In this document: positions 1,868 to 30,996 of the stretch, one piece after another
Layout: every line of letters starts with the position of its first letter
Position numbering within the stretch: the stretch's first letter is position 1
From: Alphaproteobacteria bacterium
GTDB lineage: Bacteria > Pseudomonadota > Alphaproteobacteria > Rhodospirillales > Rhodospirillaceae
Direction of reading: 5' to 3'
Length of the DNA: 45,601 nt
Assembly: GCA_015233585.1 (NCBI GenBank)
Contig: JADFXL010000004.1
Coordinates: 1 to 45,601 of the forward strand
Made by a program: the position numbers and the translations under genes
The notes under the pieces: model-generated
What the model was told of the DNA's origin: nothing
Seen by the model: the letters and a program-made list of their open reading frames with translations, nothing else
The model's database searches: none

Positions 1868-3289
1868 ATGCGCAGAAACCGAAAAGCCAAGATCATTGCC
1901 ACCCTAGGGCCGGCAAGTTCATCCCCCGAGGCGCTCGAAGCCCTGTTCCGGGCCGGCGCTGACGTGTTCCGCTTCAACTTCAGTCACGGCACCCACGCCG
2001 AGCACAAAGCGCGCGTGGAAATGGTCCGCGATCTGGAGCGAGCCTACCGCCGACCTATCGCCATTCTGATGGACCTCCAGGGGCCGAAGCTGCGTGTGGG
2101 GGAATTTGCCGGCAAGACTGTCCGCCTGGAACATGGTGCGATGTTCCGGCTGGACCTGTTGTCGGCGCTGGGCGATGCCACCCGTGTGATGTTGCCCCAT
2201 CCCGAGATATTTGCCGCCTTGACCGCAGATACCGACCTTTTGCTGGATGACGGCAAGGTGCGGCTACGGGTCGAGCGAGTCGGTCCCGACTTTGCCGATA
2301 CCCGCGTGATTATTGGCGGAACGCTTTCCGATCACAAAGGGGTCAATGTTCCCGATGTTATCCTGGGGATTTCATCGCTGACCGCCAAGGATCGCGTCGA
2401 CCTCGACGCCGGACTGGACATGGGGGCCGACTGGGTGGCGCTGTCCTTCGTGCAACGTCCCGAAGATGTGGCCGAAGCCCGCAAGCTGATCGGTGGACGC
2501 GCCGCACTCCTGTCCAAGCTGGAGAAACCCAGCGCTATTGATTTCCTCGACGAAATTATCGAACTCTCCGACGCGGTCATGGTCGCGCGCGGCGATCTCG
2601 GTGTTGAGGTACCGCCGGAAAATGTGCCGATCCTGCAAAAGCGCATTGTCCATGCTGGGCGCCGCGCCGGCAAGCCGGTGGTGGTGGCAACCCAGATGCT
2701 GGACTCGATGGTCCATGCCCCCACTCCCACCCGCGCCGAAGCTTCCGATGTCGCCACCGCCATCTATGACGGCGCCGATGCCGTGATGCTTTCGGCGGAA
2801 AGCGCCGTTGGGGCCTATGCCGTCGAAGCGGTGACCATCATGGACCGCATCATCTCGACGGTGGAACGGGATGAAGTCTATCTGCGCATCACCAACGCTT
2901 CCCGTCTGGAGCCAGAAAGCAACGCTGCGGACGCCATCAGCGCCGCCGCCCGTCAAGTGGCGCACACCATCAAGGCGGCCGCCATCGTCACCTACACCTC
3001 CTCTGGTTCGACAACCTTGCGGGCCGCACGGGAACGGCCGGAAGTGCCAATCCTGTGTCTGACGGCGAATCTGGCGGTGGCGCGACAGTTGGCCATCGCC
3101 TGGGGGGCTCATTGTGTTCTTATCAATGAAATCGGCAACTTCGCCGACATGGTCAAGAAGGCGTGCCGGGTGGCGCGCCGCGATTCTTTCGCAGACTTTG
3201 GGGACCGACTGGTCGTCAGCGCGGGCGTACCGTTTGGAACCCCCGGAACCACCAACGTACTGCGTATCGTCCGGCTTGATGAGAATTGA
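1868..3289 (+). CDS. pyk: Pyruvate kinase
   Basis: MRRNRKAKIIATLGPASS, FRFNFSHG, ILMDLQGPKLRVGEF, VMVARGDLGVE, KPVVVATQMLDSM, RAEASDVATAIYDGADAVMLSAESAVG. ORF track starts at 1820; the internal ATG at 1868 fits family N-termini better. Confidence 0.95.
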   Translation: MRRNRKAKIIATLGPASSSPEALEALFRAGADVFRFNFSHGTHAEHKARVEMVRDLERAYRRPIAILMDLQGPKLRVGEFAGKTVRLEHGAMFRLDLLSALGDATRVMLPHPEIFAALTADTDLLLDDGKVRLRVERVGPDFADTRVIIGGTLSDHKGVNVPDVILGISSLTAKDRVDLDAGLDMGADWVALSFVQRPEDVAEARKLIGGRAALLSKLEKPSAIDFLDEIIELSDAVMVARGDLGVEVPPENVPILQKRIVHAGRRAGKPVVVATQMLDSMVHAPTPTRAEASDVATAIYDGADAVMLSAESAVGAYAVEAVTIMDRIISTVERDEVYLRITNASRLEPESNAADAISAAARQVAHTIKAAAIVTYTSSGSTTLRAARERPEVPILCLTANLAVARQLAIAWGAHCVLINEIGNFADMVKKACRVARRDSFADFGDRLVVSAGVPFGTPGTTNVLRIVRLDEN

Positions 3290-3452
3290 GGGGTCGGGGG
3301 CGAACATGACGCCTCCTTCCCACCGCGCCCTACCGTTCCCTGCCGGTTGCGCCCGTTGCCGTCATGGAGTCCTTGACTCCGGCACCTGAAAGACAAGAAC
3401 ATACGAAGCGACAGCGTTGGGCTGTCTGATAGTGTTTGAGGAATTGCATACC

Positions 3453-4964
3453 ATGCGCGTTGTTTGCGTGTATTCCGTGGAAGGTTATGTCTCGGTTGAA
3501 AAACCAATGCTCAGTGGTGGGGATCTTCCATTCGGGATCGCGACGATCGCCTCCGTGGTCCAGCACGCCGGACACGACGTTGACACATTGGTGATGACCC
3601 GAAAGTCACCCATCGAAGATATGGTAGCGGCCATAATCCGTGACTTCAAGCCGCGCGTCTTCTGCATGACCGCCGTCACCACCCAGTTTTACATCATCGC
3701 GCGCGTTGCCAAGGCCGTCAAGGCGGTCGACCCCACCATACGATGTGTTCTGGGCGGTCACCATGCGTCGCTGTGCACCGACTCCGCCGCCAGCGTTACC
3801 GAATTCGACGCGCTGTGCATAGGCGAGGGCGAGCGGGGAATCGTCGAGTATCTGCGTCAGTACGAAGAAGGGCTTGACCCCACCGGCGTTCCCGGCTTCT
3901 GGCTTCGGCGAGGTAGTGATTTCGAGAAGAATACCGCCCTGACTTTTAACTACGACCTTGATTCGCTGCCCTTTATCGACCGCGATCTTTGGACCAAGTG
4001 GATGGCTCATCCCTACGAATGGACGGCGGTCCTGGTCGGACGCGGTTGCCCCTTCACCTGTACCTATTGTTCCAACCACGTGATGCGCAAACTGGCCGAC
4101 GGCAAATACGTGCGTTTCCGGTCCGTCGACAATCTCATCGCCGAGATTGCGGACGTTATGAGCAAGCACCCCGTCCGCAACATCCACCTCGAAGTGGAGA
4201 CCATTGGGGCCAATCCCGAATATGCGAAAGAGTTAAGCCGGAAACTGGCGGAATACAATTCCAAGCGAGAACGGCCGATCTGGTTTGAAATCAACCTGGC
4301 CCTGACGAAGCGCTATACCGACGACGAGCCGTTCGCCCGTGAATTGCTGAGCGAGCTGGCTGCCGCAAATATCAAGCTCATCTATATCGGCCTGGAATCA
4401 GGGTCCATGCGGGTACGCAACGAGGTCATGCGCCGCCCGAAGTATACCAACGAGGGGTTGCTGCGTTTTGCGAAGCTGGCCAACTCGTATGGTATTGATA
4501 TCGGCATGAATGCCATGATGGGGTTGCCGTCGGAAACCGTGGCCGAATATCTTGAAACCGTAGACATCTGCCACAAGGTTCAGCCGAAGCACGTATACAT
4601 TTACATTTTCTATCCGTATCCGGGAACGGAACTGTATAATCGGACTCTGGAGCTTGGGCTTATTTCAAATGACGCACCGAAGGTTGTTCGGGAACGTGAA
4701 TTCGTCGGGGAGCGCTCGCGCGCCTTCCTGAATACGAAGGAATTTCCAAGGTGGCGTGTCCAGCTTGAGTTCATCCTGTTTTATTATAAGGTCTACCGTG
4801 GTCACTGGCCCGCCATGCGCCTTCTGCTGAAGACGGTCAGGCAGATTACAACCGTCGTCCCGGTTCTGAACTCCTTTTATCTGAATGTCGTTCGCAGCTC
4901 CAAGATCTTCAGCGTGTGGCGGCGCAAATACAGCACGTATGCGGAAGTCGAAACAGAGTCTTGA
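3453..4964 (+). CDS. B12-binding-domain radical SAM protein
   Basis: N-terminal cobalamin-binding-like region (VLGGHHASL, FDALCIGEGE) and radical SAM motif CPFTCTYCSN (CxxxCxxC), then IYIGLESGSMRVRNEVMRR. ATG at 3453 chosen over the TTG start at 3417. Confidence 0.85.
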   Translation: MRVVCVYSVEGYVSVEKPMLSGGDLPFGIATIASVVQHAGHDVDTLVMTRKSPIEDMVAAIIRDFKPRVFCMTAVTTQFYIIARVAKAVKAVDPTIRCVLGGHHASLCTDSAASVTEFDALCIGEGERGIVEYLRQYEEGLDPTGVPGFWLRRGSDFEKNTALTFNYDLDSLPFIDRDLWTKWMAHPYEWTAVLVGRGCPFTCTYCSNHVMRKLADGKYVRFRSVDNLIAEIADVMSKHPVRNIHLEVETIGANPEYAKELSRKLAEYNSKRERPIWFEINLALTKRYTDDEPFARELLSELAAANIKLIYIGLESGSMRVRNEVMRRPKYTNEGLLRFAKLANSYGIDIGMNAMMGLPSETVAEYLETVDICHKVQPKHVYIYIFYPYPGTELYNRTLELGLISNDAPKVVREREFVGERSRAFLNTKEFPRWRVQLEFILFYYKVYRGHWPAMRLLLKTVRQITTVVPVLNSFYLNVVRSSKIFSVWRRKYSTYAEVETES

Positions 4965-6744: not shown

Positions 6745-7491
6745 TCATAAGGCTCGATGGTATTGTTCATCCGCAACGTAGCCGCACGCAGTGAAAAGGC
6801 ACTTGATGAGGTCCGTTCCCGTGATGGGTTTGGTGGCCACCATTGAGGCACCGGCCATGAGGATGGCTTCGTGCATGGCCGGGGACTTTTCAGCGGTCAA
6901 GATGAGCACGGGGGTTCGGCTGGAATGGCTGGCGACATCGGCCCTTAACACCCGAACAAAATCATCCCCGTTCATATGATCCATGAACAGGTCGGAGATG
7001 ATGACATCGGGTTCGACGTCGCCCGACTTCAGAAGCTCAAGTGCGTTCAGGCCGTTGGTGGCTTCCGTAATGCGGGAGATGGGGGCTTTTGCGAGCAATT
7101 TCTTGATCAGATTGCGCATCATGTCATGATTCTCGACAATCATGATGTGGAGGTGTTTCTCCCCCATCTCGATCATAAACGCGGCTCCGCCTCTGTATGG
7201 CGCGATCCTCTTCAGGGATTTGGCGGGCAAGGGTACGTGCTGGCGGTGACAGGACTGCGCCAGGGCGTCCAGCACTTCCTCTCGCGGCAAATCGACGACC
7301 CTCGTGGGACCTCCGGAAAAGATGGGAGGAAACCGGAGTGTTACGGCTAATCCTTCCGGGTCGGGATGGATCCGCATTTCGTCCGGCGCACGGCATGGCA
7401 ACCTCCGGCCCAACCGAGAACAGTGGCGCCGAAGTGCGTCCAAAAAATCGGCCGGCGGGAAAATGACGATACGGCGTTCATGAACGATCAT
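6745..7491 (-). CDS. Response-regulator-like protein: uncharacterised N-terminal domain + canonical REC domain (paralogue A)
   Basis: N-term MIVHERRIVIFPPADFLDALRRHCSRLGRRLP...VLDALAQSCHRQHVPLPAKSLKRIAPYRGGAAFMIEM, then REC: HIMIVENHD, VIISDLFMDHMNG (phosphoacceptor D), LILTA, VATKPIT. Confidence 0.85.
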   Translation of the reverse strand: MIVHERRIVIFPPADFLDALRRHCSRLGRRLPCRAPDEMRIHPDPEGLAVTLRFPPIFSGGPTRVVDLPREEVLDALAQSCHRQHVPLPAKSLKRIAPYRGGAAFMIEMGEKHLHIMIVENHDMMRNLIKKLLAKAPISRITEATNGLNALELLKSGDVEPDVIISDLFMDHMNGDDFVRVLRADVASHSSRTPVLILTAEKSPAMHEAILMAGASMVATKPITGTDLIKCLFTACGYVADEQYHRAL

Positions 7492-7546
7492 GAGGGCACG
7501 ATCCTGGAATATGTCGTTCGGGGGATATCTGAGCAGATGGTAGAAA

Positions 7547-7586
7547 TGGGCTGCCGCCCATGCCCGCTTGGGGCCTTAGGCCCCAA
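7547..7586. repeat. Degenerate palindromic intergenic module (GGGCTxCCGCCC-A-n-CC-t/c-GCtTGgGG family)
   Basis: gggctgccgcccatgcccgcttggggccttaggcccc; similar modules at 29433-29460, 38071-38100 and, degenerately, 6621-6652. Confidence 0.55.
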
Positions 7587-7599
7587 ACCTTGATAATAG

Positions 7600-7664
7600 A
7601 CGGGTTTCCAAAGGCCTCCGGCCTTTGGCGGGGGTGGGCGAAGCCCACAGGGTTCAAATGTGAT
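7600..7664 (+). repeat. 65-bp structured intergenic repeat, copy 1
   Basis: acgggtttccAAAGGCCtccGGCCTTTggcgggGGTGGGCgaaGCCCACagggttcaaatgtgat; by eye 60/65 identical to the reverse complement of 30932-30996. Confidence 0.85.
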
Positions 7665-7768
7665 TGCCCCATGACGCCTGTGTCTTGATGTTGCTGGCCA
7701 AGTTTCGTTGTCCTATCATGGGTGATGTGGGCCGGATGCGACGAATTGTCGATGGGAGGGTAACAACC

Positions 7769-8038
7769 ATGGGCCATGAACAGACGGAGGCGCGTGAGAC
7801 GGCGCCGACCAGGACGGACGAACAGATTGATCTCGATATGATGGCTTTTCTTTGCGGCTGCGACGTTGACCAAGCCGAAACCCGCGTGGCCGCAAATCCG
7901 CGGCTGGGTTCCTTTCTTGCCAAATCCCACGAAGAAGCGGTTCTCGAAGAACGGGTCGCAAACAAGGTAATCGCTGTCGAACGGAAAGCCATGTCTCAGC
8001 AGGAGGTTGCCGTTCTGCTGGGTATTGAAGAGGGATGA
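7769..8038 (+). CDS. Small hypothetical protein encoded opposite to the surrounding REC genes
   Basis: MGHEQTEARETAPTRTDEQIDLDMMAFLCGCDVDQAETRVAANPRLGSFLAKSHEEAVLEERVANKVIAVERKAMSQQEVAVLLGIEEG; preceded by gggaggg RBS-like sequence. Track start 7664 falls at the end of the repeat. Confidence 0.55.
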   Translation: MGHEQTEARETAPTRTDEQIDLDMMAFLCGCDVDQAETRVAANPRLGSFLAKSHEEAVLEERVANKVIAVERKAMSQQEVAVLLGIEEG

Positions 8039-8052
8039 GGGCTGCATCTCCA

Positions 8053-8913
8053 TCACTCCGTTGCAGAAGCCTTGCCGGGGCTTTCCCAATGCCAGGGAGT
8101 TGTCAAGAGACAGTCGATGGCGCACATGATGTCATTTGTTGAGTATGGAGCGGCAATGACTTCGTGGAATCCGGCATCAAGGAACTTCTCTGCCCCAGGG
8201 ACATCCTTCGAAGGTAATATTGCCAATCCCCGTGCGAACCGGGATCGCGATTCTTGTCTACGAATCGTCGCTATGAAGTCATTCCCAAGATCAACCGTTC
8301 CCGTATTTATAATGACAACGTGAAATTCCTTCAAGTCCATGAGTTCGATAAATTCATAAGCATCAGAGCATTCATCAATATGGGTTGCTTTTAATCCTGA
8401 TATTATACTTTTGAACTCGCGCCGGCTCCTTGCGTTGTGATCGATGATGCAAAATGCGGCCTGTTCCCATAATATGGTGAATAATTTTTCTTGTGGAATC
8501 TTTCCTCTCGATACTCGTGGGAGGATGCGTGTGATCGGATTTATCGTATCCTTATTGGCTTGAAGGAAAAAAGACTCTGGTTGAACGACCTGCATCATCA
8601 GGGCCGCGCCTTCATCGAATTTCTCCAATTGTTTCATGGATCCCTTTGGCAAAGGGATAAGGTGTTCGTGACAATACAGGCACAGTGCGTCAACGACCTG
8701 ATCGTAAGTCAAAACAAATTCCCAAGATCCCGTTATGGTTGTGTATTTTTCTTGCGCGAAGCGAATGATTAGCGCCGTCTCTTTCCCTGGATCAAAGATC
8801 AGCGTCTCCGGCGCGATATCGGGTAATCGTGTGCCCGCATGGTTACTGTAACGTCGAAGCGCATCAATAAAGGTGACTGAAGAGAATGTGATGACGCGCC
8901 GTTCAAGTATCAT
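8053..8913 (-). CDS. Paralogue B: same N-terminal domain + degenerate (pseudo-)receiver
   Basis: [52 protein letters not shown]...VVDALCLYCHEHLIPLPKGSMKQLEKFDEGAALMMQV; REC-like AAFCIIDHNARSRR...FHVVIINTGTVDLG (Asp position reads N)...VIAAPYS (Lys position reads A). Confidence 0.8.
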   Translation of the reverse strand: MILERRVITFSSVTFIDALRRYSNHAGTRLPDIAPETLIFDPGKETALIIRFAQEKYTTITGSWEFVLTYDQVVDALCLYCHEHLIPLPKGSMKQLEKFDEGAALMMQVVQPESFFLQANKDTINPITRILPRVSRGKIPQEKLFTILWEQAAFCIIDHNARSRREFKSIISGLKATHIDECSDAYEFIELMDLKEFHVVIINTGTVDLGNDFIATIRRQESRSRFARGLAILPSKDVPGAEKFLDAGFHEVIAAPYSTNDIMCAIDCLLTTPWHWESPGKASATE

Positions 8914-9833
8914 TTCTTCATTTCTTTCGCTGGAGTGCCGATATTGGAAATTTTTTGCGCCTCTCCATCACATGAAATGACTGTTTTCCCATGCATTCGG
9001 AACAAAAATTTATGTACCATTACGTGTTCAAGAAGATTCTTTATCATCTCCATTGAAAATGGAATTTTCAATACTTCGTTACAGCCAGATTTTAGCAGAA
9101 ACGTATCGTCGCTGCTGTTTTCTGGTATAATTGCTATGCAGATTGCGAATTTTGAATGAAATTCGGCATTTCTGATTATTCTTATAATGTCAGTACAGCT
9201 CATTCCACGTAGCACACTGACGAAGATAAGATCAAATTTGGTATCGTTATCAATTTGAATGCGGACGAACTCTGTTTCATCATGGCATTCGCAAATATGG
9301 CGCGCGCCACAAGAAATAATTGTATTTCTAATCGCTCTTCTGGTCTCTGAATTGGAGTCGATGATACAGAACGACGTGTTATTCCATATTATTTTTATTA
9401 TGTCTGATCTTGTCGCGTTCTTATCAGGTATCCCGTGTTGTATCACATCGACCAACCGGACGGTTATGACATCTCGTTGCGGCTCCCCGCCTGCACGCTC
9501 CAGGCCAACCTGGATGAGGACGGCGGCATGATCGTGGAAAACCGAGAGTCGCTTTGATGCCCGTTTTGGCAACTTTACATGATGCTCCTGACAATAGTCG
9601 CACAGCGCCTCAATGACCTGGGTACGGCCAAAGGCATGATTGCTACTGTCTCGTCCTGGATTGTCTGCCGATGAAAACCGGAGGGTCAACGCCATTTCGT
9701 GGGTAGGATCAAACGCGAAATCCTGCGGCACCGCGTCGGGCAGCGGTTGGCCATTCCGCATACAATACCGGCGCATGGCATCGAGCAGACTCCCGGTGGG
9801 GAACATCAAAACGCGGTGTTCGAGTATCGTCAT
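8910..9833 (-). CDS. Paralogue C: same N-terminal domain + degenerate (pseudo-)receiver
   Basis: [53 protein letters not shown]...[40 protein letters not shown]-like [14 protein letters not shown]...[14 protein letters not shown] (Asp position reads S)...VLKIPFS. ATGA overlap with gene B (8910-8913). Confidence 0.8.
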
Positions 9834-12169
9834 GCGCTCTCCCCAGTTACGAACAGAGCGTCCGGTAGCGCGTAGGCCGTGGTCATCAAGGCTGCGGGCA
9901 GACTGTTGATGGCCTCAACGAGCTGTGCCAGCGCCGTTTCGACATCCCCACTCCCGCGTGAGGCAACTTCCAGAGTCTTCGACGCCGACCATACTTTCGA
10001 GAGTCCCATGCTGTCGGCCGCACCCTTGACGGTATGGGCTTCGCGGCTGATGCTATTCAGGTCGCCATTCGTCAGGCTGGCACGCACGGCTCTGAGACGA
10101 ACGTTCGCATCTTCAATAAACTCGACCAGTAGTTCGATCACATTTTCCGCCTCGATATCCTTGGCCAGGGTATCGAGAACGCCCAGGTTGATAGCAGTGG
10201 TCACTGTCGATGGTTCGCAGCTTGCCTTGTCGCGCGGTCTGTTCACGCCGGAGTAACGGAGCAGCACGTCACACAGCTTGCGGCGTTCGATCGGTTTGCT
10301 GATATAGCCGTTCATGCCGGCATCCAGGCATTGCTGTTCAAAGCCTGGCATGACGTTGGCGGTCATGGCGATGATAGGAATGGCTGAGGCCGGGGGTGGA
10401 AGCGCCCGGATGGCGGCTGTCGCCTCGAAGCCATCCATTTCAGGCATTTGCACGTCCATGAAAATCAGCTCGTAGGACGAGGAGCGCGCCGCCTCTATTG
10501 CCTTTCTTCCATTTTCGGCAATATCGACCGTATGTCCCAGCTTGCGCAGCAGCATCAACGCAAGTTGCTGATTGACGGGATTGTCTTCGGCAACCAGAAT
10601 GCGCATCAGCTCTCCGGTCGGAGCCAATTCGGTTGTTGCGGGCATCGCCTCGGATTTGCCACCGATCAGGCCAAGAGCGCGACCGATAGCGCCAAAGAGA
10701 ACATCCAGGTGCAGAGGTTTGAGAAGGAAACCATCAATGGCCTCCACCGTATCAGGGTCTTTCAACAGGCCCTGGGACGAGGTCAGGATCAGTCTACAGG
10801 ATTTGAGAAGAGGAACGGCTCGTATCATTCGCACCAGATCGGGGGTGGAGATGCCTGACATGTGGCCATCGATTACGGCCACTTCCCATGGCTGATTCCC
10901 GGCGGCGGCACGGGTCAACTCGGCCAGGCACAGGCCTGAGTCCTGAACGGTCTGCACCACTAGGCCATAGGCCGCGAGTTGACGTTCGAGGGTTTCGCAG
11001 ATAACGGCATTGTCATCCACAACCAGGATCCGCCGGCCCGCGAGGTTCAAAATGGGATCCGCCACAGAACCGGAAACGGGAATCGGCAAAACCACCCAGA
11101 AGGTACTGCCCCGGCCGGGTTCGCTGGTCACCCCGATTTCACCCCCCATCAGTTCGGCCAGTCGTTTGCTGATGGCGAGTCCGAGACCGGTTCCGCCATA
11201 ACGCCGGGCGGCTTTCGCATCGACCTGGGAGAACGACATGAATAATCGTTTCTGTCCCTCTGGGGAAATACCGATGCCGGTGTCGGTTACGTCGAAGCGG
11301 ACACGGGTGCCGGTATCCGTTTGCACCGAACTCACCGCGATGCAAACGCCGCCGTGATCGGTGAACTTCACCGCATTGCCCGTCAGGTTCAACAGGATTT
11401 GCCGCAGACGCATTGCATCGCCCCGCATCATTCCTTGCAATTCCGGATCGAGGTAGGTCGTGATATCGACATTCTTGGCATGGGCGCGTGGGGCCACAAT
11501 GTCCGCCACGCTCTTGAGCAACGGCAGCAACTCGAAATCAACGGGGCTGATTTCGAGCTTGCTGGCTTCGATCTTGGAGAAATCAAGAATGTCGTTGATA
11601 ACCGCAAGCAACAATTCACCGGAGTTGCGGATCGTTTCGGCGAAATAGCGTTGCTCGTCACTCAATCGGGTGTCGAGCAGCAGCTCGGTCATGCCGATGA
11701 CGCCATTCATCGGTGTGCGGATTTCGTGGCTCATCGTCGCCAGGAATTCCGCCTTGCTCCGTTCCCCGGCCTCAGCCCGTTCGCGGGCCTGTTTCAGCTC
11801 GATCTGGTTGCGCACCCTGATCTTGACGATCGGTGGGCTGATGGGTTTCGTGATGTAGTCCATCGCCCCCAGCTCAAGTCCACGCATCTCGGCGGTGACA
11901 TCGTTCAGCGCGGTGACAAAAATGATGGGAATGCTTGCCGTAACCGGCTGCTTCTTCAATTGTTCACAGACACTGTAGCCATCCATTTCTGGCATGATGA
12001 CGTCGAGCAGAATCAGATCGGGCCGCAGCGTCTCCACCAGAGCGAGCGCCTGAAGGCCACTGGTGGCGAACGCCACCTCGTACTGGTCGTCGAGCACTTC
12101 TGCCAGGATCTCGATATTTGCGGGTTCGTCATCCACCACCAGGACAAGTCCACGCTGATCATTGCTCAT
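9830..12169 (-). CDS. Hybrid histidine kinase REC-HisKA-HATPase-REC-REC-HPt
   Basis: [22 protein letters not shown]...[80 protein letters not shown]...[14 protein letters not shown]; HPt [17 protein letters not shown] at 12169 preferred over the track start 12235; ATGA overlap with gene C at 9830-9833. Confidence 0.93.
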
Positions 12170-15100
12170 GACGGTCTCCAGAAACCAATTTGCCGGAAAT
12201 CTTATCGAGACATTGCCGTGCCTTGGTGAAGTCAAGACCTTCTATGGCGACAGCCATTTCCTGAAGATCCTCGTCAACTCCCTGTCCAGCCAGGGACGAC
12301 TGGAAGTTGGGAAACCGCTTGCGAGCGGTCAGGCTGTTCCTGTCCAGAAGGGGGATCAACTCAGCGGCGAGAGCCGCCACAACATCGCTGTTCAGCGAGG
12401 AGGAAGGTGGTGATACGGCAATGGAAGCCGCGTTGCTTCGTCTCTCCGTCATCAATGACCTTGCTGCCGCCAATGCCGCTGTCAAATGAATTTCGAAACC
12501 ATCGATCAACCCGGAAATCCCGTTTACGCTTCCCGAACGGCACCCGCGCTCCAGTTCGTGTGCGGCATCGAACAGCGCCCTGGCTTCCAGATTTCCTGCC
12601 ACGCCTTTCAGGGTATGGGCCAGAAGTCCGGCCTCATCAATGGCGCCCGCCCCGACCATCCGGCGCAGATCCTGGACGGCAGCGTCATATTTTTTGCCGA
12701 AATCGATGATCAGTTTGCGCAGCAGCTTTCGGTTGCCGTTGACCCGGGGTAGGGCAACGGCAATGTTGAACGGTGGCAGGACGTCGGGAAGCAGGGTATC
12801 CAGGGTGTCGGCCGATGGCGGCCGGAACGGATGCGGAAGCGTCTCCGTCCGTGGAGCTATCCACTGGTTGAGAACAGTGATCAACCGTATGGGGTCAATG
12901 GGCTTTGCGATGTGATCGCACATGCCGGCGTCCAGGCACCGTTTCTTGTCTTCATCTATGGCGTGGGCGGTCATGGCGATGACGGGCGGGCATTTATCGA
13001 CCATCCCGCTGCGAATCCGGCGGGTTGCCTCAAGACCATCCATTTCCGGCATCTGGACATCCATCAGAACTGCGTCGTAGTTCACAGTCCGGCTCAGCAT
13101 GGCCTCAACCGCTAATCGTCCATTGGCAACGATGTCTACCGCGATCCCGAATCCGGTCAATAGCTCCTCTGCCACCTGTTGATTGATTTCGTTGTCCTCG
13201 GCCACAAGAACGCGAGCGCCTAATGCATGGGCGGCCAAGGTTGGCGATGGTTCGATGGCGGCGCGAGGCATCGCGGAAGCATGTCCGCCGAAGGCATTCA
13301 CGATGGTATCGAACAGGAGGGATACTCCCACCGGCTTGATGAGGAGTGCCTGGATACCCAGCTGTTCGGCTTGCGCCATTACTTCCTCACGGCCGAAGGC
13401 GGTGATCATGACGACCGTCAGTGTTTGAGCGATCCTGGGATCTTCCTTGATCAACCGCGTGGCTTCGATGCCATCCATTTGAGGCATCTGCCAGTCCATC
13501 AACACCAGATTGAATGGGTGGCCCGCCGCCGATGCTTGTTCAAGCAGGGCGATCGCTTCGAGTCCACCTGTCGCGGTGGTCACCTGCATGGACCAGACGG
13601 TGAGAATTTCGGCAAGGATCGTGCGTGAGGTAGCGTTGTCGTCCACCACCAGAACCCTTAGGTCGCGCAGATCTTCAGGAATGGCGGGAACTGGCCCGTG
13701 CGTTGACTTCGGAAGGCCGAAGCGACCCTCAAACGTGAACGTGCTGCCCAGACCCGGTTGGCTTTTCACCGCAATCGAACCGTTCATCATGGCTGCCAAG
13801 CGGTTGCTGATGGCCAACCCCAGGCCGGTGCCGCCGAAGCGGCGTGTCGTCGTCATGTCGGCCTGCGAGAACGATTGAAACAAATGCGACATCTGTTCCT
13901 CGGTCATGCCGATGCCGGTATCGCGTACGGAAAATCGGACCGTCACTCCATCGGAGGCAGCTTCAAGCTGTTCCACCGAAACCACCACCTCGCCGGTTTC
14001 CGTAAATTTGACCGCATTGTTGACCAGATTCATCAGAATCTGCCCGAGACGCAGCGGATCCCCCATTAGCGATGGTCGTGCGTTGGATGAGACGGTGAAC
14101 AGCAGCTCGATCCCCTTCTCTGCCGCCCGCAGCGAAGTGACGTTCGCGATCCCGTCCAGAACCGACTGAAGACTGAACTCGATGTTTTCCAGGCTAAGCT
14201 TACCGGCTTCAATTTTAGAGAAATCAAGGATGTCGTTAATTATTCCCAGCAGGGCTGTGGCTGAACTTTTGATTTTTGTCAGATAATCGGTCATCCCAGG
14301 ATCGGGTGTCGCTTTTAACGCTAAATGGCTCAAACCGATGATGGCGTTCATCGGCGTGCGTATTTCATGGCTCATGTTGGCCAGGAACTGGGACTTGGCC
14401 TGATTGGTGGCTTCGGCCCGGTCCCGTGCCTCCAGCAATGCCAGTTCGGTATGCTCCCGCTCCAGGGCGAAGGAGAGGATTTCCGCTGCTGTCACCAGCA
14501 AGCGGATATCGTTCTCCGTCCATCGGCGTTCCGCCCGGATGGCGTGGAAGCCGATGAACCCGGCGAACGCGCCGCGCAGCACCAACGGCACGGAAAGGTT
14601 GGAAATTACACCAAAAGATTTCAGAAGCTCGCGCTCGCGCTCCGCCTCGGGCGGCAACTCGGCCACGTTGGCGGTATAGACCGTTTGCAACGCCTTGAGT
14701 TGCGGCACGAGCCACGGCAATTCGTCATCGCCATAACTTGGCGGGGCGGCGAGGCGGGACTTGATGCTATTGGTCGACCATTCCGCTTCGAGTGCCAGAC
14801 GATGGCTACCGGGAGACCGAAGGAACAAAACCACGCGGTCGGTCCCGGTGAACAGACCGAGGGCCATCAGGGTGTGAACGATCTTGGCATGAAACGATCC
14901 GGCGTCGGCGGAAACAAAGTCGCTGGAAATACTGGCGAGGAGCGTTTCAAGCTCGGTCCGTCGCTCCAAGGCAAGTTCGGCTGTCTGACGCCGGGCGATA
15001 TCTCTGGCGCCGGTGCGGAACAGGGCTACAACGGCCAGGCAGGTGAGTAGGAACAGGACACCGAAGCCGTAGGCGATCCAGTACTCATGTCCCTTCAGCG

Positions 15101-15956
15101 TGGCGGCAACCCGGCTGCTGTCAAGGAAATAGGAGATCTGCCAGTCCGGCAGGGCGTCAATGGCGTGACGACCAACGAGATAGGTCTTTCCATCCGGGGC
15201 TTCGATCCGATGGACATCGAGAACTTTCAGGCCGATGGAGTCAAGAACCGTGTCTCCATACTGATGGCTTTCCCGGAGTCTGGTGGCCTCGGCCTGATTC
15301 AGGGGGTTGAGGGTACGGAACAGCCAGTCGGGCCGGTTGGATACGAAGACGACATTGTGGACATCAGTAAGCGTAATGAAGCCGGCATGATCGCGGAACT
15401 CATTCTCAATCGCCTCAACTCCGGCCTTGATCACGACCACGCCAATCACCGCGCCGCCGGCATCCGTTACGGAATTTCCATAATAGATGCCACGTTCCCT
15501 GGTGACGACACCGAGAGCCATGTACGTGCTGGCCTTTCCTGCGAGAGCTTCCTTGAAATAGGGACGAAACGCATAGTTCTTGCCGACGAAGCTGGTGGTG
15601 GTTTTCCGGTTGCTGGACGCGATCGTGGTCCCCGTCCGATCCAGGAGATAACAGACGGCCGCGCCGAGTGTTCCGCAATAATTGTCGAGCACCATATTGG
15701 CACGCTCCAGACCGTCGGGCATCCCCTGCAAGGCCTCCCGCATCTGGAGAAGACTGCTCAGGGTGGCCGTGGACTTGCTGAGTTGCTCCAGATGCAGCGT
15801 GGTATGCTTGGCCAGTACCCTGGCGGTCCGCTCGGTATCGTCGACAGCCTCCTGCATCGCGCCCTTGGAAAGGTGGACGTAGAACAGAACACCGCCGGTT
15901 CCGGCAGAAAGCAGCGTAAGGAGCGCAAGAACAAACAGGCTGATTCGTGCGTTCAT
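12159..15956 (-). CDS. Membrane hybrid histidine kinase: DctB-like periplasmic PDC/dCache sensor-GAF-HisKA-HATPase-REC-REC-HPt
   Basis: N-terminal TM helix; [41 protein letters not shown] resembles DctB-type PDC sensors; [62 protein letters not shown]...[29 protein letters not shown]...[17 protein letters not shown]; HPt [12 protein letters not shown]. Confidence 0.93.
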
Positions 15957-16020: not shown

Positions 16021-18309
16021 TTATTCCGACTTGTCCGGAAGACTGAAGAAGAAGGTGCTGCCTTGGCCCGGTTCTGACTCCACCCATATAAGACCGTCAT
16101 GATGCTCGACAATCTTCTTGCAGATGGCAAGGCCGATGCCGCTGCCTGCGTAATCCCCCACGGCATGTAAACGCTGGAAAATGCCGAAGATACGCTCGAA
16201 TTGAACGGGGTCGATCCCGATGCCGTTATCGCGAACCGCAAACTCCCACAGCCTTTCGCGATGGCGGAATGAAAGCGATATATGTAGCGGCTTGTTTAAT
16301 GGACGGTATTTGAGCGAATTGCCGATCAGGTTCTGAAACAGGCGGAACATCTCGCCATGGTCCGCAAACACTTGCGGCCAATGTTCCCCTTCGACCGTGA
16401 CGGTGGCCTGGTACTCGTCAATCGACAGCTTGAACATGTCCAGAACCTCATGGATCACGTCTCGCACGTCAACCCAACCCGGCGGTTCTGTGGTGCGGCC
16501 GACACGGGCGTATTCCAGCAGGTCGATAATCAAACGGTCCATCCGCACGGCGCCATCAACCGCGAAGGCCATGTAGTCCCGTGCCTCCTGGTCCAGCGTT
16601 TTACCGAGTTTCTGCTCAAGGAGCTGGAGATAGCTGCGAACCATGCGCAGCGGCTGGCGAAGGTCGTGGGAAGCGACATAGGCAAACGCTTTGAGATCGC
16701 GGTTGGAGCGGCGTAGCATCTCCTCCATCTGCTGCCGCGTAGCGATATCGACACCGGTACCCACGAATTTATCGCCGTGGGAAGTCAACAGACGGGAGCC
16801 GGTAAAAAAATACGGAATACGCTGGCCGGTTCGGGTGACAAAATTTGCTTCAATGGTGGCGTGGCCAACGGCGAAGACCTCCTCCATCCTCTCGGCCACC
16901 AAGATCTTCTCGGTACCAGCGAAAAAATCCATTGGGTGCATCCGTCGGATTTCGTCGGCGCCATAGCCTGACACGGCTTCGAAATTATGGTTCCACAGAT
17001 CGAACCGGCTGTCGCGGTCGATGACATAGAAGATGCCCGGCAGGCTCTCGATCACGGCCTTGGTGAAATTGCGTTCCTCGTGGAGCGCTGCCTCTGCCGC
17101 CTTGCGTTCGGTGATGTCGCGGAATACGAGGACACCCCCGACATGGCGATCGCCTTCGGCCAGAGGAGACGTTGTGACTTCCGCCGGGAACACGGAACCA
17201 TCCCGTCTTGTAAACGAGCAACTATCCAGGCGCGTCGCCGTTTCGGTGCGGCACGACTGCGTGGCCAGGCAGGTTTCGTGCTGTTCAGGGCAAGAATGGC
17301 AGACCAGATCGCACCAGTTCCGGCCCAGGATGGCGTTTTCCGGCCAGCCGAGCAGTTCCGCCGCTGCGGTATTGGCGAACGTGACCTGGCCGGCGGCATC
17401 AAGGCCCACGACGCTGTCGCCGGCCGATCGCAGGATAAGGTCGAGACGACGTTCGGTTGATTCAAGCTGCCGGCTTTTCCGGGTGAGTACCTCCTCCAGA
17501 TGGTGCACATAGCCGTGCTCCATGGCGGCCAGGATGTCGGTCATGGTCAGAATGCCGCGCACCTCGCCGTCGGGGCCAGTAATAACGAGGTGGCGAAATC
17601 GCCGCGCCTCCAATAAATTGCGGGCCTCGATCAGTGGTGCGTCGATGGAGATGGACACCAGGGGCCGGGTCGCAACGTCGCCGATGCGCACGTCATCGGC
17701 ACGCCGGGCGATCAACCGGACAACATCCCGCTCGGTGATGATCCCTACAGGTTCCCCGTTCTCCGTGACCAGCGCGGCATCCAGGCCGTTGGCGAACAAC
17801 TGGCCAATGGTCTCGCCCACCCCGATGTCGTGGGGCAGGGTGAGCGCCGGCCGAAAGGCGACCGAACCCACCACGCGAAAGGACAGGTAGGACTGAATGC
17901 CGAGCTTCAGGACGACATCGGTCTGGCTGATGATCCCGATCATCAAGCCCGCAATGTCCACGACAATCAGATGACGGATGCTGTGTTCCCGGAATTTGAC
18001 CGCCGCATCCTGCAGGCTGGCGTTATCGGGGATGGAAATGAGCGGAGCGTTCATGAAGTTTGAAACGGGCTGCTCGAAGATACCGGGGTGGTCAAGATTC
18101 AGACGCAACGCGTCCATTTCGGTCCAGATGCCGAGAGGGTTGCCGGCACGGGCAATGATAATCGAACCGCACTTGTTCAGCGCCATTGTGGCGGCCGCGT
18201 CGGCAACTGCCGTTTCGGGCTCGCACATGATGACGGTGGGATGCATAAGGGCGCGAACCGGTTCCCTGCCGATCCCGGCAAATAGTGAGTCGTCCTGGTT
18301 TGTCTTCAT
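16021..18309 (-). CDS. Sensor histidine kinase: tandem CBS domains-PAS-PAS-HisKA-HATPase
   Basis: VRALMHPTVIMCEPETAVADAAATM and further CBS-like repeats (VSNFMNAPLISIPDNASLQDAA; VATRPLVSISIDAPLIEA); two PAS segments; FAYVASHDLRQPLRMVRSYLQLL; NLIGNSLKYR, DNGIGIDP, GSGIGLAICKKIVEHH. Confidence 0.9.
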   Translation of the reverse strand: MKTNQDDSLFAGIGREPVRALMHPTVIMCEPETAVADAAATMALNKCGSIIIARAGNPLGIWTEMDALRLNLDHPGIFEQPVSNFMNAPLISIPDNASLQDAAVKFREHSIRHLIVVDIAGLMIGIISQTDVVLKLGIQSYLSFRVVGSVAFRPALTLPHDIGVGETIGQLFANGLDAALVTENGEPVGIITERDVVRLIARRADDVRIGDVATRPLVSISIDAPLIEARNLLEARRFRHLVITGPDGEVRGILTMTDILAAMEHGYVHHLEEVLTRKSRQLESTERRLDLILRSAGDSVVGLDAAGQVTFANTAAAELLGWPENAILGRNWCDLVCHSCPEQHETCLATQSCRTETATRLDSCSFTRRDGSVFPAEVTTSPLAEGDRHVGGVLVFRDITERKAAEAALHEERNFTKAVIESLPGIFYVIDRDSRFDLWNHNFEAVSGYGADEIRRMHPMDFFAGTEKILVAERMEEVFAVGHATIEANFVTRTGQRIPYFFTGSRLLTSHGDKFVGTGVDIATRQQMEEMLRRSNRDLKAFAYVASHDLRQPLRMVRSYLQLLEQKLGKTLDQEARDYMAFAVDGAVRMDRLIIDLLEYARVGRTTEPPGWVDVRDVIHEVLDMFKLSIDEYQATVTVEGEHWPQVFADHGEMFRLFQNLIGNSLKYRPLNKPLHISLSFRHRERLWEFAVRDNGIGIDPVQFERIFGIFQRLHAVGDYAGSGIGLAICKKIVEHHDGLIWVESEPGQGSTFFFSLPDKSE

Positions 18310-30931: not shown

Positions 30932-30996
30932 ATCGCATTTGAACCCTGTGGGCGCCGCCCACACCCGCCAAAGGCCGGGGGCCTTTGGAAACCCGT
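30932..30996 (-). repeat. 65-bp structured intergenic repeat, copy 2 (inverted relative to copy 1)
   Basis: Reverse complement acgggtttccaaaggcccccggcctttggcgggtgtgggcggcgcccacagggttcaaatgcgat; differs from 7600-7664 at 5 positions by eye, three of them in hairpin loops. Confidence 0.85.

Follow-up and report, generated by a model that had tools for sequence, protein, structure and literature searches.

A doubled beta-alpha-beta-beta domain of Alphaproteobacteria occurs as a free-standing protein and fused to CheY-like receivers

Three neighbouring genes in a Rhodospirillaceae genome encode proteins that begin alike and end in receiver-like domains, and the locus raises the question of what their shared N-terminal part is and what it does. 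The window is the whole stretch of DNA that was analysed, 45,601 nucleotides of contig JADFXL010000004.1. The genes A, B and C are open reading frames of its minus strand, at the positions given by a first-pass annotation made from the sequence alone. The features of the region are:

6745–7491, minus strand: protein A (248 aa), N-terminal (beta-alpha-beta-beta)x2 domain and CheY-like receiver (ORF, Pfam, AlphaFold2 pLDDT 93)
6784–7149, minus strand: receiver of A, with acidic pair E-N and the phosphoacceptor D, T and K kept (alignment, Foldseek)
7159–7491, minus strand: N-terminal domain of A, residues 1–111 (AlphaFold2 domain model)
7555–7665, no strand assigned: hairpin-rich intergenic repeat between A and the ORF at 7769, with 46 matches in the genome at E ≤ 0.01
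7769–8038, plus strand: convergent 89-aa ORF, absent from the first-pass annotation (homology)
8053–8913, minus strand: protein B (286 aa), N-terminal domain at 8587–8913, linker of about 45 aa, pseudo-receiver at 8116–8451
8910–9833, minus strand: protein C (307 aa), N-terminal domain at 9504–9833, linker, pseudo-receiver at 9039–9368
9830–12166, minus strand: hybrid kinase REC-HisKA-HATPase-REC-REC-HPt, immediately upstream of C (ATG at 12166; listed TTG start at 12235)
12159–15956, minus strand: hybrid kinase Cache-GAF-HisKA-HATPase-REC-REC-HPt, overlapping the next gene
16021–18309, minus strand: CBS-PAS histidine kinase, the orthologue of which adjoins a B/C-type gene in genome G020 (contig C38)

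The N-terminal approximately 108 residues of A, B and C are homologous, and the proposal that the three are paralogues with a common N-terminus is borne out. In pairwise BLAST comparisons of the N-terminal 115 residues, A is 35% identical to both B (E 4e-21) and C (E 3e-21), and B is 41% identical to C (E 2e-27). Smith-Waterman z-scores of the three pairs are 31–40 relative to 300 shuffles. The homology of B and C extends over 280 residues (E 2e-42). The description of the genes as tandem applies to B and C, whose 4-bp overlap reads ATGA, but not to A: the 561 bp between A and B contain the hairpin-rich repeat and the convergent plus-strand ORF. The same genome (G000) encodes two additional full-length fusions of the domain to a receiver, paralogue D (G000:C288:4310-5032, plus strand) and paralogue E (G000:C119:4090-4806, minus strand), and a distant stand-alone copy of the domain on contig C424.

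The N-terminal domain extends over about residues 3–110 and is formed of two homologous halves. The AlphaFold2 model of the domain of A alone has a pLDDT of 94.2 and a pTM of 0.85; the input alignments of this and of the full-length model consisted of window and locus sequences only. The first half comprises a strand (residues 5–11), a helix (13–26) and two strands (38–41 and 48–54), and the second half a strand (64–69), a helix (70–83) and two strands (93–99 and 102–109). The same doubled beta-alpha-beta-beta order is visible in the model of full-length A (pLDDT 93, pTM 0.71). The lower pTM of the full-length model leaves the arrangement of the two domains of A relative to each other uncertain. 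The two halves align with an hhalign probability of 96% and a score of 49.5, far above the scores of 100 column shuffles, which did not exceed 8.5. The domain is therefore an internal duplication of a beta-alpha-beta-beta unit of approximately 52 residues. The first-pass annotation gave an extent of about 110 residues, but the domain is not a single unit of that length. The conserved second block described there (V-x-x-AL-xx-YC...LP-x-x-S-x-K) is present; it is the second of the two homologous repeats. Residues E5, R7, C81, P87 and K94 of the domain are near-invariant across Alphaproteobacteria.

The claim that the sequence pattern matches no named domain withstood comparison with families and structures. 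Pfam contains no convincing family for the N-terminal domain in any of the 34 members scanned, in which two isolated sub-threshold matches were found, each in a single member. There was no credible NCBIfam match to the domain in the six proteins scanned and nothing significant for it in a sequence search of the PDB. Foldseek searches against the PDB and viral models provided no significant structural match to the domain; the best PDB match (E 0.11, TM 0.25) has an unrelated fold, and none reached E ≤ 0.001. PilZ, PAS and HPt identities, which had been named as possible outcomes, were rejected based on the absence of Pfam matches in the 34 members, the doubled beta-alpha-beta-beta fold and the lack of a structural match. 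Weak matches to SWIB, KH and R2D2 were taken as chance. No description of the domain was found in open-licence papers. Neither the libraries nor the open-access papers that were searched describe the domain; the surrounding parts, CheY-like receivers, hybrid kinases and pseudo-receivers, are of known kinds.

The C-terminal part of A is a CheY-like receiver. It matches the Pfam family Response_reg (PF00072) over residues 116–231 with an E-value of 6e-20 and 71.8 bits (cut-off 30.2), and the Foldseek search with the full-length model returned CheY-type receivers only, the best of which are crystal structures of CheY (TM 0.86 by target, about 31% identity). A may be phosphorylated only weakly, since its metal-binding pair is E-N instead of D-D. 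All catalytic residues (D-D, D57, T87 and K109) are present in the receivers of D, E and the orthologue from Magnetospirillum. The match of B to the Pfam receiver family is below the cut-off (E 0.0018, 18.9 bits), and no receiver match is listed for C in Pfam. Both B and C align with canonical receivers with E-values of 0.003–0.004, using a model built without them. In B, the second acidic position is occupied by H, D57 by N, T87 by P and K109 by A. In C, the corresponding residues are S, S and P, and a lysine is located one position before K109. The C-terminal parts of B and C are pseudo-receivers, judged by computation from this alignment with receivers and from the missing key residues. The organization of B and C, with the domain followed by a linker of about 40 residues and a dead receiver, recurs in another genus (protein G020b, E 1e-38 to 1e-46). 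The receivers of both G020a and G020b are degenerate, and that of genome G313 has E at D57. Besides the receiver or pseudo-receiver, A, B and C contain no other recognisable part and no DNA-binding or enzyme domain, in agreement with the earlier annotation. Because the receiver or pseudo-receiver is the only other recognisable part, the N-terminal domain is the obvious candidate for an output or interaction module.

Genes C and B follow two hybrid kinases (Cache-GAF-HK-REC-REC-HPt, then REC-HK-REC-REC-HPt) in one run. C overlaps the gene of the adjacent hybrid kinase by 4 bp, and the overlaps between kinase and C and between C and B make it very probable that the hybrid HK-HPt gene, C and B are co-transcribed. 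The CBS-PAS kinase of the window is 57% identical to its G020 orthologue over the first 400 residues. The ORF at 7769–8038 resembles the tail of a G020 protein that combines a pseudo-receiver with an Arg-rich arm (E 2e-6), and the G020 gene is likewise convergent to a B/C-type gene. This neighbourhood, common to the window and G020, argues that the degenerate B/C form is maintained. The hairpin-rich repeat between A and the convergent ORF looks like a REP/BIME- or MITE-type element; it is also found at 30932–30996 of the window, and its RNA fold has a z-score of -4.05. No Rfam family was detected anywhere in the window.

The domain is not special to receiver proteins, as had been supposed, but occurs mostly as a free-standing protein of 105–140 residues in Alphaproteobacteria. 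A profile built only from the five copies of this genome matched short ORFs from other families within the order, with E-values down to 1e-15. The enlarged profile detected the domain in 153 of 317 genomes of the order and in 55 of 385 genomes sampled across the class. All ten carriers in a phylum-wide sample of 399 genomes belong to the same class. A single stand-alone query found no match in plasmids. The fetched loci contain 119 distinct domain sequences, of which 85 stand alone, with a median of 7 residues after the domain. A search for conserved neighbours of stand-alone members identified no broadly consistent context: polA and MsrPQ occur in some families only, and the neighbours are otherwise scattered. 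The polA gene adjoins the stand-alone gene at loci L106, L109, L120, L123 and L124 from several families of the order, often together with MsrP/MsrQ-like genes. Tandem or multiple stand-alone copies, up to five matches per genome, were observed in other Alphaproteobacteria (L190 (G374:C4), L205 and L206).

The remaining 34 distinct domains in the fetched loci carry a C-terminal receiver, and no C-terminal partner other than a receiver was found among the 119. A FastTree phylogeny groups 33 of the 34 fused domains in a single clade (support 0.947); the last, L101 from genome G313, is placed among stand-alone members. This placement indicates a second, independent fusion, so that the domain appears to have been joined at least twice to the same type of partner: in an old event, shared by this genus, a related genus and Magnetospirillum, and in L101. 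The independent second fusion is a Rosetta-stone signal for interaction with receivers; it comes from one genome, in which the receiver has E instead of the phosphoacceptor D. Named organisms with the fused form are species of Magnetospirillum and Paramagnetospirillum. In Magnetospirillum-type loci (L093, L094, L096, L097, L103, L104 and L105), a gene for a putative membrane protein of about 235–260 residues, without a Pfam family, lies directly or one gene after the fused gene and is often preceded by an ArsR-like HTH gene.

The N-terminal domain is most likely an interaction module associated with receivers, given its repeated fusion to them and the absence of another output. The specific proposal, in which this undescribed module turns A into a phosphorylation-gated adaptor with B and C as constitutive partners, has in our judgement an even chance of being right. 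The neighbouring hybrid kinase/HPt relays would phosphorylate the receiver of A, and likewise those of D, E and the Magnetospirillum orthologue, and phosphorylation of the receiver would change the docking of the N-terminal domain. An A-type protein would then work as an adaptor, rather than as a transcription factor or an enzyme. In the same complex, B and C, with their dead receivers, would serve constitutively as partners, as competitors or as scaffolds. A tentative and less probable extension is that the stand-alone (beta-alpha-beta-beta)2 proteins are receiver-docking adaptors that act in trans on CheY-like proteins. The receiver fusions of this genome, Magnetospirillum and G313 would be fused forms of such adaptors, the pseudo-receiver versions built-in antagonists, and the FliM-mimic neighbour described below a decoy.

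Alternatively, the N-terminal domain may sense a ligand and control the receiver in cis, and the fused proteins would be one-component-plus-receiver integrators. A ligand cleft can arise between pseudo-symmetric alpha/beta repeats, as in SHS2/GyrI-type domains, the near-invariant residues E5, R7, C81, P87 and K94 could line a pocket, and stand-alone members without another domain suit a small-molecule binder. However, Foldseek matched the fold to neither GyrI nor another ligand-binding domain, and no ligand or metabolic neighbour is conserved around the stand-alone members. A sensor is judged unlikely. A nucleic-acid-binding module, such as a distant dsRBD- or KH-like half in an antiterminator- or RNA-binding-type response regulator, is far less credible. 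The helix of the second repeat weakly matches the dsRBD protein R2D2 (E 0.0065), A weakly matches a KH domain (E 0.18), and R7 and K94 are conserved basic residues. Nevertheless, every match is sub-threshold, those to R2D2 span 34 and 26 residues, and that to KH is at residues 115–141, outside the domain. Foldseek identified no dsRBD or KH structure, and the doubled beta-alpha-beta-beta order is neither topology. It is similarly very improbable that B and C are decaying, functionless duplicates of A-type proteins: their receivers have diverged strongly and lost the phosphoacceptor residues, but their reading frames are intact and overlap precisely with each other and the kinase gene, and the same degenerate architecture is kept in G020b.

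The fused proteins could also belong to the chemotaxis or flagellar-motor branch, as CheY-like switches that are tuned by oxygen and c-di-GMP and whose N-terminal domain docks with the motor or with Che proteins. This idea, which appears doubtful, is consistent with the CheY type of the receivers and with the gene order around E: behind it come genes for a hemerythrin and for a CheY-like protein that bears a tandem [YF]xGPxRR arm, the c-di-GMP-binding motif of Caulobacter Cle proteins (PMC5677366). Hemerythrin genes are located beside CheY-like proteins with Cle-type arms at two places, L089 (G000:C119) 3089–4083, behind E, and L170/L211 (G000:C146). It is also consistent with the FliM-like end of the ORF beside A. 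The ORF at 7769–8038 ends in AMSQQEVAVLLGIEEG, which resembles the CheY-binding FliM peptide of the same genome, VLNQDEIDSLLGFDED. Two other proteins have FliM-like ends, AMSQTEVAALLGHD (G000:C146) and AMSQAELVARLNK (G020), and the likeness of all three to the FliM peptide is no more than a resemblance. Such an end could mimic FliM or serve as a decoy on CheY-like proteins with an Arg-rich arm. The window ORF (7769–8038, plus strand) and reading frames in L211 (3338–4015, plus strand) and L092 (1069–1980, minus strand) have C-termini of the form AMSQxEVxxLLG or similar. All genomes with receiver fusions that were scored have FliM, and the domain is more common in FliM-positive genomes of the order (139 of 264) than in FliM-negative ones (14 of 53; Fisher p 5e-4, ignoring kinship and genome completeness). 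However, the 14 FliM-negative genomes that carry the stand-alone domain, including near-complete genomes such as G041 (98% complete), rule out a strict dependence of the domain on flagella. Furthermore, A, B and C themselves lack the Arg-rich arm, which in its C-terminal tandem form, [YF]xGP[DE][RK]R, is present in the neighbours of E and G020b.

The analysis defines a widespread unannotated domain that roughly half of the order's genomes encode, and its repeated fusion to CheY-like receivers provides a concrete clue to its function. Magnetospirillum is culturable and has a single-copy orthologue, which makes the question testable. If the domain is a receiver-docking module, many alphaproteobacterial “hypothetical proteins” would join two-component signalling.

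The beta-alpha-beta-beta order of each repeat is that of SHS2/GyrI-type modules, in which SHS2 stands for strand-helix-strand-strand, and GyrI-type proteins are likewise duplications. The order alone is no proof of membership; no such module was among the Foldseek matches listed, none of which was significant, and there was no Pfam GyrI match in the 34 members. The receivers of A, D, E and the Magnetospirillum orthologue are similar to CheY and other single-domain response regulators, which are without a DNA-binding or enzyme domain. In contrast to CheY, the receiver of A-type proteins is preceded by the N-terminal domain of about 110 residues. To our knowledge, no form of CheY with such an N-terminal domain has been described. 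B and C are comparable to the bacterial pseudo-receivers reviewed in PMC12632262 in having a receiver-like C-terminus without the phosphoacceptor, Thr and Lys; they differ in their fusion to an undescribed domain and in a receiver similarity that is marginal in Pfam. In the Cle proteins of Caulobacter, which are CheY-like effectors of c-di-GMP (PMC5677366), the CheY-like receiver is likewise accompanied by an accessory segment and not by a classical output, and proteins with a Cle-type arm are encoded in the operon-like run of E and beside the B/C-type gene of G020. Unlike the arm of Cle proteins, which A, B and C do not have, the additional part of A, B and C is N-terminal and folded.
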